Translations under genes and position numbers: made by a program
The notes under the pieces: generated by a model
Database searches by the model: none
What the model was told of the DNA's origin: nothing
The model's input: only the letters and a program-made list of their open reading frames with translations
Shown here: positions 318 to 12,177 of the stretch, one piece after another
Numbering within the stretch: the first letter of the stretch is position 1
How the letters are laid out: the number at the start of each line of letters is the position of its first letter
Origin: Nitrospinae bacterium RIFCSPLOWO2_12_FULL_45_22
GTDB lineage: Bacteria; 2-12-FULL-45-22
Assembly: GCA_001803565.1 (NCBI GenBank)
Contig: MHDQ01000285.1
Coordinates: 1-13,028, forward strand
Length of the DNA: 13,028 bases
Reading direction: 5' to 3'

Positions 318-1373
318 TCAGGGCAAGGGTAGATGGCGTGAAATGAGCCAGTCCTTCAATTTGCCGGTAATAACCAGTTTTTGCTGCTGGAGTTCGGTCA
401 GATTGCGGCATCCGGTTAAGAGCATAGCCATACGTAATCCCTTAACTAGATAATCAATATAGGCCTCTACCGCCGACATCCCTCCGCTAGCGTATTCTTT
501 CAGGAAAGGCAAGGCTATACCTGTTACTGTAGCCCCTAGAGCAATGGCTTTAGCTATGTCTAACCCGTTCCTTATACCACCCGAGGCAATAGTAGTAAAG
601 CCAAGGTTTTTCAGCTCACATAAACTAGCTGCGGTAGGGATACCCCAGTCCCAAAATAGCTCCCCTAGTTGTTTCGCTACCCCCTGGCTACGCAAAGATT
701 CTATCCCTACCCAGGATGTCCCCCCAGCCCCACCTATATCTACTAAGTCTATCCCGATGGCTTTGAGCTTTAACCCTACCTCGCGAGATAAGCCTCCCCC
801 GGTCTCTTTAACAATTAAGGGGCATTTAAGGCTTTGGTTCAATCTCTCTAGTGTTTCATAACTTTTACTAAAATCTGTATCACCTTCTGGCTGGATCAAT
901 TCCATAGCGGTATTGAGATGGATAGATATGGCATCAGCCTCGATACTATCTACCAGGGCCTGTATTTCTTCTGAGGATATATTCCGGGCCTGTTGGATAC
1001 CAAGATTAGCCAGAAATAGGATGTCAGGAGCTACATCCCTGATCTGGTAAGTAAGGGCTAAAGAGGGCAGCTCATGCATGGCCCGCTGACTACCTACACC
1101 GAAACCCAAACCATACTTGGCGGCGGCTGAGGCTAAAGCCTTATTAATAGCCTGAGCCCTTTTGGTCCCTCCAACCATCGCCCCAATCAGGATAGGGGCT
1201 TTTAACCTTTTAGATAGAAAAAAAGTACCCGGGTCAACTTCATCCAGATTTACTTGAGGTATAGAATTAGGGATAAATTCTATATCTTCAAACAGGGTAG
1301 TCTTGTTGCGGGATTCTACCTGAGCCTGGAGACAAAGTTCTAGATGATCTTCTTTCCTCTTTTGTATGCCCAT
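318..1373 (-). CDS. fni: Type 2 isopentenyl-diphosphate delta-isomerase (FMN-dependent)
   Basis: Cytoplasmic flavoenzyme that interconverts isopentenyl and dimethylallyl diphosphate, the C5 units of all isoprenoids; the family needs reduced FMN, NAD(P)H and Mg. At 351 residues it has the usual length. Seen in order: RKxDHL-type start (RKEDHL, 6-11), MVGG at 66-69 where MTGG is more common, GSQR at 94-97, HLN...QPEGD at 152-165 (His, Asn, Gln and the metal-binding Glu), KETGGG at 189-194, the phosphate/FMN loop GGAGGTSW at 214-221, and a C-terminal ASGGIRNG FMN-phosphate motif. A modest AGGGA ribosome site lies upstream of the ATG. It follows the phosphorylase gene by 28 bases and is presumably cotranscribed. 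The T-to-V change in MVGG is the only oddity. Identification is firm. Confidence 0.95.
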   Translation of the reverse strand: MGIQKRKEDHLELCLQAQVESRNKTTLFEDIEFIPNSIPQVNLDEVDPGTFFLSKRLKAPILIGAMVGGTKRAQAINKALASAAAKYGLGFGVGSQRAMHELPSLALTYQIRDVAPDILFLANLGIQQARNISSEEIQALVDSIEADAISIHLNTAMELIQPEGDTDFSKSYETLERLNQSLKCPLIVKETGGGLSREVGLKLKAIGIDLVDIGGAGGTSWVGIESLRSQGVAKQLGELFWDWGIPTAASLCELKNLGFTTIASGGIRNGLDIAKAIALGATVTGIALPFLKEYASGGMSAVEAYIDYLVKGLRMAMLLTGCRNLTELQQQKLVITGKLKDWLISRHLPLP

Positions 1374-1401: not shown

Positions 1402-2145
1402 TCAAATCATAGGGAGGAGTTCCTGTACTAATAGGGTTAGCCGGGTGGTGGCTTTTCTAATATTCTTTTTCATCTTGCCCAGTTCCCATAAGGCCATGGG
1501 GTGCCTCAAGGTATATTTTATAAATTTGGCAGGATTGAGCTCACCATTATCTGTTATCTGATTGACCTCTACTTTAAAAGTGTAATCGGCAATGTCAGAG
1601 ATAGATCGCAGCGCAAGGAAAGGGCATCCTTTCTGGGCAGCTTCCAGGCCAATAAATGCCGTCTCCATCTCTACGGCCAAGGCCCTGGTATCGAGGAATA
1701 TTGCCTTTTTCTCCTCCGAGCTACCGATTACCCTGGATACCGTAATAAGATCTCCCAGGTAAGGGGTTAACTGGAGCCTGCGGCAAGCTACCGAGGCTAG
1801 CTCGACCAATCTATCCAACGATACTGCCGCTATTTGAGGAGAATTTTGCACCAATACCCTCCGACCAATCACCAGATCTCCTACCTTCAATCGGCTGTCC
1901 ACTGCCCCAGAAATACCAATAGAGATGAGAGATACCGGATTAAAGTGGTCTAATAGGACTTTGGTAGCCTCCCGGGCATTTTTTTCGCCCATGCCAGATA
2001 GAGCCAGTATGATCTCTCGGTCTTGATAGCGACCCTGGTAATATAAGAAAGAATTCAGGGTCATCTTGGCCTTAAGGTCTATCTCCCTCCTAATACCATC
2101 AATCTCATCCTTTAAGGCACCAATAATAGCTATACAATTTGTCAT
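1402..2145 (-). CDS. Nucleoside phosphorylase/nucleosidase family protein, HpnG-like
   Basis: Member of the purine nucleoside phosphorylase / MTA-SAH nucleosidase fold, which cleaves the glycosidic bond of purine nucleosides. I use the ATG at 2143-2145 because GAGGT sits 5 bases upstream; a TTG four codons earlier lacks this site. Of 247 residues: GALKDE at 9-14 with Glu14 at the catalytic glutamate position of MTA/SAH nucleosidase, GISGAVD at 77-83, VEMET at 158-162 (ribose-binding), SDIAD at 183-187 with the catalytic Asp. The C-terminal extension (LRHP...L..LG followed by a basic helix, 213-247) resembles the hopanoid-associated HpnG group, which removes adenine from adenosylhopane. Neighbouring fni and the cyclase remnant agree with this, but MTA/SAH nucleosidase or futalosine hydrolase remain possible. 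Family is sure; substrate is inferred. Confidence 0.8.
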   Translation of the reverse strand: MTNCIAIIGALKDEIDGIRREIDLKAKMTLNSFLYYQGRYQDREIILALSGMGEKNAREATKVLLDHFNPVSLISIGISGAVDSRLKVGDLVIGRRVLVQNSPQIAAVSLDRLVELASVACRRLQLTPYLGDLITVSRVIGSSEEKKAIFLDTRALAVEMETAFIGLEAAQKGCPFLALRSISDIADYTFKVEVNQITDNGELNPAKFIKYTLRHPMALWELGKMKKNIRKATTRLTLLVQELLPMI

Positions 2146-2241
2146 AAGTGACCTCAAAAAGATAAGTATCCTTATGAAAATCTTCTTTAGCGAAGCTAGA
2201 AAAATCCTTATAATTTTTCGTGATAGGCAGGCTGGTTAATT

Positions 2242-2563: not shown

Positions 2564-3381
2564 CTCGTACCAGACAAATATTCCGATTCACCCATGCAAG
2601 TTGGAGTAAAGAGAGGTTATTTTTTTCTCTCTTATTCCTCCTTCTCCTGGGTATCGCAGGAGCTACTTACGTACTATTCAAAATAGCTTCAGGATTGACT
2701 AAGCATTACAATCCGTATTTTGGCCTTTTAATAAAGGGGGGGGTGATAGGTTTTTTCCTAATAGTGGGTTCCAGTATTTTTTTGCTAGGAATAAATCTAT
2801 TCACGGGGATTGAATTACCTTTCAATGATAAGATAAAAAAAATAACTATCTCCTTTTTCTTTCCTCTTACTGTATCAGTGGGAAAAATCTTACGTATCTC
2901 GAAGGAACAAATCCAGGAATCCTTTCTTGAAGTAATTAATAAACTTATCCGGGCTAAGACATACCGCATCTATCCTCAAAAGATACTGCTCCTCCTGCCC
3001 CATTGTTTACAAAATTCCCGTTGCCCGATTAGGCTAACTCCACAGGGGAGTAATTGTCAGCGGTGTGGGGAGTGCGGGATTAAGGATTTATGCGAGATAG
3101 CAGATGGATATGGGGTGAAGCTGACTATTGTAGCTGGTGGGGAACTCGCCCGAACATTCATAAAAGATATTAAACCTGAGGCAGTGGTGGCTGTAGCCTG
3201 TACCAAGGAGATGATCTCCGGCATCCAAGATACTTATCCATTATTAGTCTTGAGTGTATTGAACCAACGGCCCAATGGTCCTTGTATTGATACCAGGGTA
3301 AATTTAGGAAGGGTGGAGGAGGCTATAAAATTCTTCCTGGGTGATAAAGGAGCCGGGCAGACTCATAGTGTGCTCTCATGA
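2560..3381 (+). CDS. DUF116 membrane protein with cysteine-rich cytoplasmic domain
   Basis: DUF116 family; function not established. I take the ATG at 2560 because GGAAGG lies seven bases upstream; a TTG at 2542 would add six residues. Of 273 residues, two membrane segments are clear (about 20-42 and 54-80), then a soluble domain. It carries the family hallmarks: LLLPHCLQ with Cys149, Cys155, a CxxCxxC cluster (Cys166, 169, 172) plus Cys178, VAGGELA at 191-197, VACTKEM with Cys214, and GPC at 240-242. The eight cysteines suggest metal or Fe-S binding, which is inference. It heads the plus-strand operon and ends in ATGA, overlapping the start of the cyclase remnant, so it was once translated together with that cyclase. 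Family assignment is confident, role unknown. Confidence 0.88.
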   Translation: MTRTRQIFRFTHASWSKERLFFSLLFLLLLGIAGATYVLFKIASGLTKHYNPYFGLLIKGGVIGFFLIVGSSIFLLGINLFTGIELPFNDKIKKITISFFFPLTVSVGKILRISKEQIQESFLEVINKLIRAKTYRIYPQKILLLLPHCLQNSRCPIRLTPQGSNCQRCGECGIKDLCEIADGYGVKLTIVAGGELARTFIKDIKPEAVVAVACTKEMISGIQDTYPLLVLSVLNQRPNGPCIDTRVNLGRVEEAIKFFLGDKGAGQTHSVLS

Positions 3382-3503
3382 TGCAATCTACCCCCTGAAT
3401 TGATAAAGGTCAAAATGATTATCAGTTAAATAGTGCTATTGCCCGGGCGCAAAAATTCCTTATGGAACTACAGGATAAACAGGATGGCTTTTGGGTAAGA
3501 TAA
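3378..3503 (+). pseudogene. Decayed N-terminal fragment of a probable squalene-hopene cyclase
   Basis: The ATG at 3378 overlaps the DUF116 stop (ATGA). The frame reads six codons (MMQSTP), meets TGA at 3396-3398, then continues for 34 sense codons to TAA at 3501-3503. The second part includes AIARAQKFLMELQDKQDGFW, which matches the N-terminal 'A..A..FLL.LQ..DGYW' pattern of squalene-hopene cyclases and related prenyl cyclases. Intact members are over 600 residues; here everything after about residue 40 is missing. No other typical start codon precedes the conserved part except the internal ATG at 3462. The dehydratase gene starts 4 bases later. The match is from memory of the family pattern and is short, so it could be another member of the prenyltransferase/terpene cyclase repeat superfamily. 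Confidence 0.55.
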
Positions 3504-3507
3504 AAAA

Positions 3508-4602
3508 ATGGGACAATTTAGCTTTGATAACCGCTACTGTAATCCGGATAAAGAAAAGCCCCAGATAGGCTATCTCTGTTCCTATACACCAATAGAAATT
3601 ATTGTAGCAGCCGGTCTCCAACCCATAAAACTGAATACCCGGGATGAGGCGATAAAGCAAGCCGATGGTTATACGCACAATACCATGTGTGCATATGTGA
3701 GGCAGATACTGGATATAGCCCTGGAGGGTAGTTATGACCAGTTGGCCGGGGTGATATTCGTCAACTCTTGTGATGCCATGAGGCGATTACATGATCTCTG
3801 GCGCTATTATATAAAGACTGGCTTTACCCATATTATAGAATTGCCCAGAGATGATACGGTATCGAAGAGGGCCTTTTACATTAAGGAATTAAATACATTT
3901 GCGCAGAAATTGGAGGAGCGTTTCTCATTAAAGATAACAGACGATAACCTCTGGGGAGCTATCCGGCTAATCAACCAGACCCGACGACTATTGCTGGAAT
4001 TATCACGCCTCAGAGAGGGTAACCATTACTCTTTGAGGGCCAGCGAAATATTCCCTATTATGCTGGCCAGCACAAAGTCTGATCCAGCCAGGTTCAATGA
4101 GGAGTTGGAACGCTATCTGGAAGAGATAAGAAAAGATTTATCTATGCAGGATAAAACCAGGCAACCCAGGGTCTTAATAACTGGCAGTATTATAGACCGG
4201 GGGGATATCATTGAGTTAATGGAAGATTTTGGCCTCTCCATAGTAGCTGAAGACCTTTGTACCGGCCTGCGGGGCATAGGTCAGTTAGTAGCAGAAAGGG
4301 ATGATCCCTGGGAAGCCCTTGCGGAACGATATTTAGAAAGGGCCCCCTGTGCGCGGATGAAGGGGCTGGAGCAACGCCTAAAATTTATTTATCAACTAAT
4401 TGGTGATTACAGAGTAAATGGGGTAATTTCTTACTCCTTAAAATTCTGTGACCCAGAGTTGATGTTTTATCCTTTTTTGAAGGCAGATCTAGAAAATAAG
4501 GCCATCCCCCATTTGCATTTGGAAGGCGATGGTACTACCGCTAGCCTTGGTCAGTTGAAGACCAGGATCCAGGCCTTTATCGAGATGCTGACAAAAGGTT
4601 AA
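3508..4602 (+). CDS. 2-hydroxyacyl-CoA dehydratase family protein, beta-like subunit
   Basis: Member of the HgdB/FldC/HadC/BcrB-C family (2-hydroxyglutaryl-CoA dehydratase D-component). Such enzymes remove water from 2-hydroxyacyl-CoA by a ketyl radical, or reduce aromatic acyl-CoA, and need an ATP-driven activator. The 364 residues match the shorter subunit. Visible: IGYLCSYTPIE near the N-terminus (20-30), Cys61 in HNTMC, Cys88 in VNSCDAMRR, Cys314 in LKFCDPE (the three likely cluster ligands), RAPCAR at 279-283, and the C-terminal LEGDGTT...TRIQAF signature. The ribosome site is weak (GGGT about 11 bases upstream), odd for an operon gene and consistent with its promoter-proximal sequence having been rearranged. 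The partner subunit follows by 13 bases. Substrate cannot be deduced. Confidence 0.9.
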   Translation: MGQFSFDNRYCNPDKEKPQIGYLCSYTPIEIIVAAGLQPIKLNTRDEAIKQADGYTHNTMCAYVRQILDIALEGSYDQLAGVIFVNSCDAMRRLHDLWRYYIKTGFTHIIELPRDDTVSKRAFYIKELNTFAQKLEERFSLKITDDNLWGAIRLINQTRRLLLELSRLREGNHYSLRASEIFPIMLASTKSDPARFNEELERYLEEIRKDLSMQDKTRQPRVLITGSIIDRGDIIELMEDFGLSIVAEDLCTGLRGIGQLVAERDDPWEALAERYLERAPCARMKGLEQRLKFIYQLIGDYRVNGVISYSLKFCDPELMFYPFLKADLENKAIPHLHLEGDGTTASLGQLKTRIQAFIEMLTKG

Positions 4603-4615
4603 GGGAGGAGATAAG

Positions 4616-5815
4616 ATGGCTAGCTTAAGAGAGGTCTATCAGGAATTCTATCAAATCGCAGAAGCCAGGGCCCAGAGGAAACCTTTTGCTAGTAACCTGG
4701 CTTTATGGGAAATGGCTAAGAATTGCCAGCGCCAGTTGACAGGTAATGAGCCGTTGGTCTGGACCCGCTGTACCTTTCCTCAGGAGCTGATATGGTCTTT
4801 TGGTATCTTGCCTGTCTATGCAGAGATGGTAACTACAATAATCGGCCATGTGAAGAAATCCCCGGACTTCCTCATGGAGACCGAATCCGCCGGATTTAGT
4901 ACCGATAGTTGCACGGTGCAACGGACTAGCCTGGGCGGCATCCTATCGGATAGTTACTTGAAGCCGGTTTTATTGATCGGCTCTACAGATTTCTGTGAGG
5001 ATGGCATGCGCTTTTTTGAGCATGCCAGCCGCCATTACCAGACCGAGTATTTCCTTCTGGAAGTGCCGCCTATCTGCTCCCCGGAGTCTGTAGATTATGT
5101 AGAAGAACAGTTAAGGAGCATAATCGCTAAGCTTAGCCAGGCTACTGGGAAGCCCTTTGATCAAGAGAAATTAAAGGGGTTAATAAGGTGCAGTAATCAG
5201 ATCCGGGCTATCCAACTGAAGATCGAGGAATGGAAAAGGCAGGTCCCAGCCCCGATATATGGCCGCAGGGAAGATGACTTTTTTGGCCTGCTTAATATGG
5301 GTATCTGTGGTAAGGTAGCCGGGGAACTGGCCAGTAAGTATTATGAAGAGATAGTTGCTCGGGCCGCTCAAGGGCTCAGGGGCGCAGAAAAAATACGCCT
5401 CATGTGGCTCTACGCCCTACCACCGGTCCCTAAGGTCTTTGAATTTCTGGAGGAGCTGGGCGCCCATCTAGTAGCTACCGAACAGAACAGTATCCATTGG
5501 GACGAGATGTATGAGAATGAACCGGTGAGAGCCCTGGCTAAAAAGATCTGCCAGAGCCGGACCATTGGCCCGATAGAGAACCGGCTCCGGCATATCATTA
5601 GAATGGCAAAAGATTATCAGGTAGATGGAGCTGTCCATTTCTCCCATTTTAGCTGTGCTTATAGTGTTGGTGGTATAAGGATCATAAGGGACGAGTTGGC
5701 CAGGCAAGGCATTTCCTTCCTGAACCTGGATGGTGACTGTGCCGTAGCTCAGCATAATAATATAGACCAGATGAGGGAGACTTTAGAAAGCTTTGTGGAA
5801 AGGCTCACGCATTAG
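4616..5815 (+). CDS. 2-hydroxyacyl-CoA dehydratase family protein, alpha-like subunit
   Basis: Second member of the same family, 399 residues, the usual size of the longer subunit (FldB/HadB-like). A strong GGGAGGAG lies five bases before the ATG. Cluster ligands by pattern: Cys99 in STDSCTVQR, Cys127 in STDFCEDG, Cys347 in HFSCAYS; the C-terminal LDGDC...QMRETLESF signature is present. The N-terminal part WTRCTFPQEL...GILPVY corresponds to the family's 'CxYxPxEiixAaG' region. It probably forms the heterodimer with the upstream gene. No gene for the activator ATPase (HgdC/FldI/HadI or BcrA/D type) is in the window, so it must lie elsewhere or be shared. Benzoyl-CoA-reductase-like paralogs of unknown substrate are common in anaerobes, and this may be one. 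Confidence 0.9.
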   Translation: MASLREVYQEFYQIAEARAQRKPFASNLALWEMAKNCQRQLTGNEPLVWTRCTFPQELIWSFGILPVYAEMVTTIIGHVKKSPDFLMETESAGFSTDSCTVQRTSLGGILSDSYLKPVLLIGSTDFCEDGMRFFEHASRHYQTEYFLLEVPPICSPESVDYVEEQLRSIIAKLSQATGKPFDQEKLKGLIRCSNQIRAIQLKIEEWKRQVPAPIYGRREDDFFGLLNMGICGKVAGELASKYYEEIVARAAQGLRGAEKIRLMWLYALPPVPKVFEFLEELGAHLVATEQNSIHWDEMYENEPVRALAKKICQSRTIGPIENRLRHIIRMAKDYQVDGAVHFSHFSCAYSVGGIRIIRDELARQGISFLNLDGDCAVAQHNNIDQMRETLESFVERLTH

Positions 5816-6695
5816 TCTGAGAAAATCCATCTTCCTTACTCCCGTAATCATTACCTTCTCTATTTATTTGATCCTTTTCTTTACCACCAGGGCGGACCCC
5901 TGGGGATTAGAGACCCACAAGGTAGTTAATGATCTGGCCTGTGAGACGCTGCCTCCCTCACCCCTAAAGACTTTCTTCATTATCCATAAAGAATATATCT
6001 CTGAGCATGCGACGGACCCGGATATAGCCCTCAGAGAGCTTTATGGTGCCGAGGAAGGGGTAAAGCACTTTATCAACCTCGATGCTTATGGCCCATTCCC
6101 CTTTAAAGAGCTACCCAGAGATTATCAGCAGGCGGTTAAAAAGTTTGGCCGAAAAATGATCCAGCAGGAAGGCATCTTACCCTGGTGGATCATTTGGTCA
6201 CAACAAAGATTGCAACGGGCTATGGAACAAGGAGACTGGAAGGGAGTGCGGCAGAGAGCCAGTCATCTAGGACATTATGTAGCAGACCTATTTATGCCCC
6301 TCCATACTACTGCTAATTATGATGGTCAACTGACGGGCAATGATGGTATCCATAAACGGCTGGAAGATAGCCTGGTAGATGCCCGGATAGAACAGTACCG
6401 GGTAGAAATGAGGAAGCAGCTTAAAAAAACCTCTCCAGAAATGGTTAGGGTAGAGGATATTTTTGGTTATTCCTTAAAGGGTTGGTTAATAGTAGAAACC
6501 ATTTTAGAAAATGATCGTCAGGCTAACAAGGAGATATTAGGGTTTTTCAGTATTAAGGGGTTTTATTATCAACGGCTGGATAGAAGATTAAAACCTATCA
6601 TAATAAGGCAATTGGTGGAGGCCTGCCAGCTCTTAGGCAATATCTGGTATTCTAGCTGGCTCCAGGCCGGCAAACCTGCCCCCATTATTAAGTAA
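5793..6695 (+). CDS. Exported S1/P1 nuclease - phospholipase C type zinc hydrolase
   Basis: Secreted trinuclear-zinc hydrolase of the S1/P1 nuclease and bacterial phospholipase C superfamily. The N-terminus has basic residues (LRK), a hydrophobic segment (about 13-31) and a likely cleavage near TRA-D at 34-35. This places the zinc-binding Trp37 near the mature N-terminus, as in the family. Other ligands by spacing: His42, Asp77, His92, His161-x3-Asp165-x5-His171, His187-x3-Glu191. Glu at the last position follows phospholipase C rather than P1 nuclease (Asp). The start is uncertain: TTG at 5793 overlaps the dehydratase gene by 23 bases; a GGAAAGG at 5797-5803 lies seven bases before an in-frame ATT at 5811, an unusual start. 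Either start leaves the signal peptide. The overlap suggests cotranscription. Phosphodiester or phospholipid substrate is not decidable. Confidence 0.82.
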   Translation: MWKGSRISLRKSIFLTPVIITFSIYLILFFTTRADPWGLETHKVVNDLACETLPPSPLKTFFIIHKEYISEHATDPDIALRELYGAEEGVKHFINLDAYGPFPFKELPRDYQQAVKKFGRKMIQQEGILPWWIIWSQQRLQRAMEQGDWKGVRQRASHLGHYVADLFMPLHTTANYDGQLTGNDGIHKRLEDSLVDARIEQYRVEMRKQLKKTSPEMVRVEDIFGYSLKGWLIVETILENDRQANKEILGFFSIKGFYYQRLDRRLKPIIIRQLVEACQLLGNIWYSSWLQAGKPAPIIK

Positions 6696-11841: not shown

Positions 11842-12177
11842 GTGGATATTTCTGGGCAGATAGAAGCCATTAGCAGAGATAACCTTTTGAAAGCTTCAGC
11901 ACGAAGCATATTCCGATGGGTCACGAAGTTTAAAGAAGGAGGGGTGGAAGGATTAAGAGACCGGCCTAAAGGGCATATGAGATCTAAACTGACAGAAGAG
12001 CAGAAAAAACACATTGAGCAATGGATTGTAAGCGGTAAAAATGCCCGAGGGGAAACGGTGCCTTGGACATTGAAAAAGTTAAAAAAAGAACTGGAAAATG
12101 AATTTGGGATAAACATAGGCACAACGCCCCTATGGAAACACCTTGCTCTTATTTATGACATGTCATGGGGAATTTGA
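11842..12177 (+). pseudogene. IS630-type transposase N-terminal fragment (helix-turn-helix)
   Basis: The 111 residues correspond to the DNA-binding part of IS630-family transposases: RSIFRWVTKFKEGGVEGL (21-38), DRPKGH, KLTEEQ (49-54), VPWTLKKLKKELENEFGI (73-90), and LWKHL...MSW (97-109), which in full-length enzymes leads into the DDE catalytic domain. That domain is absent: stops follow in all frames after 12177. The frame begins with GTG at 11842 and lacks a good ribosome site, and the first HTH helix is poorly formed, so it is also damaged at its 5' end. No terminal inverted repeats were found. A solo regulator derived from a transposase is a possible alternative. Confidence 0.65.
12155..12166. 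repeat. 12-bp perfect palindrome ATGACATGTCAT
   Basis: Perfect palindrome near the 3' end of the transposase fragment. It may be a chance feature or the scar or end of an insertion. No partner copy is seen in the window. Confidence 0.3.

Follow-up and report, generated by a model that had tools for sequence, protein, structure and literature searches.

Probable 5′ remnant of a squalene-hopene cyclase gene between DUF116 and dehydratase-family genes in a Nitrospinae bacterium

Squalene-hopene cyclase (SHC; PF13249/PF13243, TIGR01787) produces the sterol-like lipids of bacteria. Two kinds of locus can be set beside the one described here: hopanoid operons in which shc stands together with hpnG, represented by loci L103 and L090, and operons of the order def-fmt-DUF116. 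The window, by which we mean the whole stretch of 13,028 nucleotides that was analysed, likewise has an HpnG-like gene close by; it also has fni, a relative of which lies near shc at locus L113, and in L090 a DUF116 gene is found inside the shc operon itself. The window differs from L103 and L090 in gene order, with its HpnG-like gene and fni on the opposite strand, and in that searches of the genome bin to which it belongs turned up neither an intact shc nor squalene synthase nor HpnH. Its DUF116 protein is of the same family as those of the def-fmt-DUF116 operons and, as in those, an N-terminal part precedes the domain, but the gene has neither def nor fmt adjacent to it and instead precedes a putative cyclase remnant and dehydratase genes. 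The features that enter the argument are the following.

318..1373, minus strand: fni, type 2 isopentenyl-diphosphate isomerase (TIGR02151, 382.5 bits, above the cut-off)
1402..2157, minus strand: HpnG-like nucleoside phosphorylase-family gene, divergent from the DUF116 gene (TIGR03468, 113 bits)
2581..3381, plus strand: DUF116 gene, overlapping the remnant by ATGA, with an alternative TTG start at 2542 (PF01976, E 1.5e-51; open reading frame)
3378..3503, plus strand: probable 5′ remnant of an SHC gene (translation; SHC N-terminal profile, 30.2 bits, with controls)
3414..3497, plus strand: part of the remnant homologous to the SHC N-terminus, peptide residues 6-33, including the first QW motif (profile alignment)
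3508..4602, plus strand: 2-hydroxyacyl-CoA dehydratase (HGD-D) family gene, 3′ of the remnant (PF06050, E 2.4e-89)
4616..5815, plus strand: second HGD-D family gene, same operon (PF06050, E 7.2e-61)

The DUF116 gene scores 174.3 bits on PF01976 against a cut-off of 25, which makes it a member of that domain family. Genes of the HGD-D type (2-hydroxyacyl-CoA dehydratase/benzoyl-CoA reductase-like) occupy 3508-5815 of the window and 12 further places in the bin; 13 matches were counted in the bin and 8 in a genome of the same order, an abundance that suggests an anaerobe rich in such enzymes. Two other frames of the window may be recorded as observations in their own right. The frame at 5793-6695, which overlaps the second dehydratase gene at that gene's end, is predicted to encode a secreted S1/P1-nuclease-like protein, its Pfam match being weak and below the cut-off, and a frame of 111 residues at 11842-12177 resembles, on visual inspection, an N-terminal fragment of an IS630-type transposase and may belong to a broken insertion sequence.

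The stretch of 126 bases between the DUF116 and dehydratase-family genes (3378-3503) begins with an ATG at 3378 that overlaps the DUF116 stop codon (TGA, 3379-3381) as ATGA, and in translation it reads MMQSTP, a stop, IDKGQNDYQLNSAIARAQKFLMELQDKQDGFWVR and a second stop. The first of these stops is an in-frame TGA at 3396-3398, the seventh codon of the frame; the final one is a TAA at 3501-3503, just past the first QW motif and separated by four bases from the ATG of the dehydratase-family gene at 3508. The translation contains FLMELQDKQDGFWV, and its QW motif, RAQKFLMELQDKQDGFW, is complete. The overlap, the TGA, the FLMELQDKQDGFWV signature and the four-base gap had all been given in the initial annotation, in each case correctly to the base. 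Downstream of the TGA the frame offers no ATG, GTG or TTG before 3462, and the ATG at 3415, which is spaced from an AAAGG that makes a better ribosome-binding site, lies in a different frame, so that the original start codon of the remnant cannot be fixed.

In the initial annotation this peptide was read as a cyclase-like N-terminal signature and the stretch as the start of an SHC gene cut off by a dehydratase operon, and both claims are supported by a specific SHC N-terminal profile and its controls. For the profile, 27 N-termini, none longer than 54 residues, were taken from SHC genes of unrelated genomes, with the window left out. On it the remnant peptide reaches 30.2 bits (single-sequence E 1.5e-11), with 28 residues aligned to model positions 9-35; within them the pattern LxxAIxRAxxFLxxLQ and the DGFWV are shared with SHC, and the first QW motif sits at the start of the frame, as it does in SHC. 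None of 94,582 scored shuffles reached this score (100,000 were made, the best giving 20.5 bits), the runner-up among the window's six-frame segments stood at 6.1 bits, and in a six-frame scan of DUF116 loci the remnant was the only significant match to the profile (E 7.8e-8). Genuine SHC N-termini that were cut at the same point and scored in a leave-one-out control gave 19.8-45.1 bits, and because 30.2 bits falls inside this range, the remnant resembles a member of the SHC family. In pairwise comparison the remnant is closest to the L075 SHC, down to an additional residue between Q and G that both have. As for a generic QW-repeat or prenyltransferase origin, the scores led us to reject it: the peptide reaches only 8.7 bits on a profile made from 207 other QW-repeat segments, and the N-termini of other QW-motif proteins reach 12.6-17.5 bits on the SHC profile.

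The check proposed in the initial annotation, a comparison of the remnant translation with cyclase families in a library, gave nothing. The 34-residue peptide matched no entry in Pfam, NCBIfam or PHROGs, and hence no curated SHC model, a result that follows from the length of the models set against a peptide of 34 residues; among PDB sequences no cyclase was found, the sole match being to YbgF, which is unrelated (E = 1.2). As there is no Pfam or NCBIfam match, we file the stretch as a remnant only and not as SHC. The homology stops abruptly at 3497, and unlike SHC the frame is broken and has lost everything beyond the first QW motif, including the catalytic part. Read from its sequence, with stops at 3396-3398 and 3501-3503 and with neither further QW motifs nor the C-terminal catalytic domain, the remnant is not a functional SHC.

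The host bin comprises 3.67 Mb in 321 contigs and is 85% complete. The remnant peptide occurs in it once, and a search for a second copy or for the remainder of the cyclase found none. Neither an SHC N-domain nor a full-length cyclase was found in this bin, and squalene synthase and HpnH were likewise not found; since the bin is 85% complete, these absences are not proof. The simplest reading is that hopanoid synthesis has probably been lost in the lineage, with the incompleteness of the bin as the main caveat. The nearest genome searched, of the same order and 68% complete, had neither DUF116 nor SHC.

The neighbouring genes bear on whether this was once a hopanoid locus. The product of 1402-2157 scores 113.4 bits on TIGR03468 (HpnG), below the curated cut-off of 187, and 117 bits on the MTA/SAH nucleosidase model, also below the cut-off. 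For comparison, the HpnG-like protein of L103, whose gene is directly beside an intact SHC gene and, by our own reading of the frames, shares its locus with two squalene-synthase-like genes, scores just 106.3 bits on TIGR03468. The C-terminal tail of the window's protein is shared with SHC-adjacent HpnG-like proteins, that of L103 among them. The gene at 1402-2157 thus appears HpnG-like only, and resembles HpnG about as closely as an SHC-adjacent HpnG-like gene does. Its relatives were found in 8 of 34 SHC neighbourhoods (up to 20 kb), and a relative of fni in one of the 34; DUF116 loci searched likewise, mostly with shorter flanks, held no relatives of either. With these HpnG-like features and the eight SHC neighbourhoods that contain relatives, it is reasonable, though not proven, that the window holds a hopanoid locus. 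The ancestral isoprenoid/hopanoid setting put forward in the initial annotation finds support in the HpnG-like neighbour, and a bin in which SHC, squalene synthase and HpnH were not found fits its loss.

We consider it probable that the stretch is the true, decayed 5′ end of an SHC gene, left in a locus from which hopanoid synthesis has been lost. An SHC gene would formerly have lain 3′ of DUF116, translationally coupled to it through the ATGA. We infer a deletion or rearrangement that would have removed the cyclase from about codon 34 on, leaving about the first 33 codons, with an endpoint some 10 bases short of the dehydratase-family start codon, and that would have put the dehydratase operon directly behind the SHC start. 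In an N-terminal comparison the N-terminus of the HGD-D gene at 3508 is similar to those of its relatives, which places the truncation of the cyclase immediately outside this gene. What remains would be dead, given the early nonsense codon, the stop after the first QW motif and the missing catalytic part, and with the loss of hopanoid synthesis the HpnG-like gene and fni would be left over. Of the former coupling at most a residue could persist, in that DUF116 translation running into the short frame could still help initiation at the dehydratase gene. The homologous residues number only about 28, which counts against an SHC remnant, as do the empty library and PDB searches and the score of the HpnG-like gene below its curated cut-off; these residues are also closely preserved, so that the loss of SHC would be recent, or else the junction is an assembly join.

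It is unlikely, in our estimate, that the junction is an artefact in which assembly, or strain mixing within the bin, joined a real SHC 5′ end to the dehydratase operon. The TGA may then be a base error, and the organism may still make hopanoids. A fragmented bin (321 contigs, 85% complete), homologous residues that are well preserved for a dead gene and the abrupt break in SHC homology at 3497 would all fit such a join; however, the rest of a mis-joined SHC might be expected in the bin and none was found, squalene synthase and HpnH were also not found there, and the dehydratase N-terminus looks natural. It is very improbable that the short frame is a selected leader, coupled to DUF116 and driving dehydratase initiation, with its cyclase-like residues a reused leftover. 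The upstream ATGA overlap, the four-base gap to the next start and the ribosome-binding site of the 3508 gene, which by inspection of the sequence looks weak and has no clear Shine-Dalgarno, agree with a leader, but a nonsense codon at the seventh position and the lack of a usual start afterwards until 3462 do not. That a non-coding spacer reads like a QW motif by accident is scarcely credible, for although the piece is short and the library and PDB searches gave no cyclase match, the SHC profile score with its shuffle, six-frame, leave-one-out and other-repeat controls speaks against chance, as does its location, directly after a coupled start and with an HpnG-like gene next to it.

The decayed SHC start that we favour had also been taken to link DUF116 to the hopanoid locus, and here the outcome is divided. 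The usual place of DUF116 in related genomes is after fmt, where often def comes first and rsmB or rng last, and outside the unrelated family f102 none of the DUF116 loci searched shows a cyclase. DUF116 was found in 62 of 386 genomes (E <= 1e-20) and SHC in 42 (E <= 1e-10), strict cut-offs at which the short DUF116 of family f102 is missed; only 3 of the 386 have both, on different contigs. With the fmt context and so few genomes containing both, the window reveals no general link between DUF116 and cyclases, and general adjacency of the two is rejected. A search of the bin for fmt with a Peptococcaceae query gave no match; it had no positive control, and the result perhaps reflects incompleteness or divergence. 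None of the papers searched contains both DUF116 and hopanoid, and titles and abstract openings of the others offered nothing relevant.

What partial support the claim has comes from family f102, in which a short DUF116 is kept on the strand of shc, some 1.0-1.4 kb downstream of it, at 13 loci in eight genera (L090, L091, L098, L178, L179, L181, L185, L186, L187, L189, L190, L232 and L233). At L090 the order is hpnH-hpnG-ispG-shc-ispH-UPF0047-DUF116, where ispG was assigned by frame reading and the others by family search. In four siblings or neighbours with shc, DUF116 is absent or the locus is cut by contig ends, and its place behind shc in f102 is accordingly frequent, not universal. These loci keep alive the idea of a link between DUF116 and isoprenoid synthesis, though their gene order differs from that of the window. 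We regard it as quite doubtful that DUF116 is a functional partner in isoprenoid/hopanoid synthesis, such as a cysteine-rich iron-sulphur helper, which would have been coupled to shc here and would independently end operons of the f102 type.

The remnant itself is, on well-supported grounds, a gene fossil of a known family and ordinary in kind. If real, it would record the loss of hopanoid synthesis in a poorly sampled bacterial lineage, and it would mean that a coupled gene start can persist as a readable fossil. The side result on DUF116 may be more useful than the remnant, as the short DUF116 behind shc-ispH-UPF0047 in eight genera of family f102 offers a lead on this functionally uncharacterised domain that can be put to the test.
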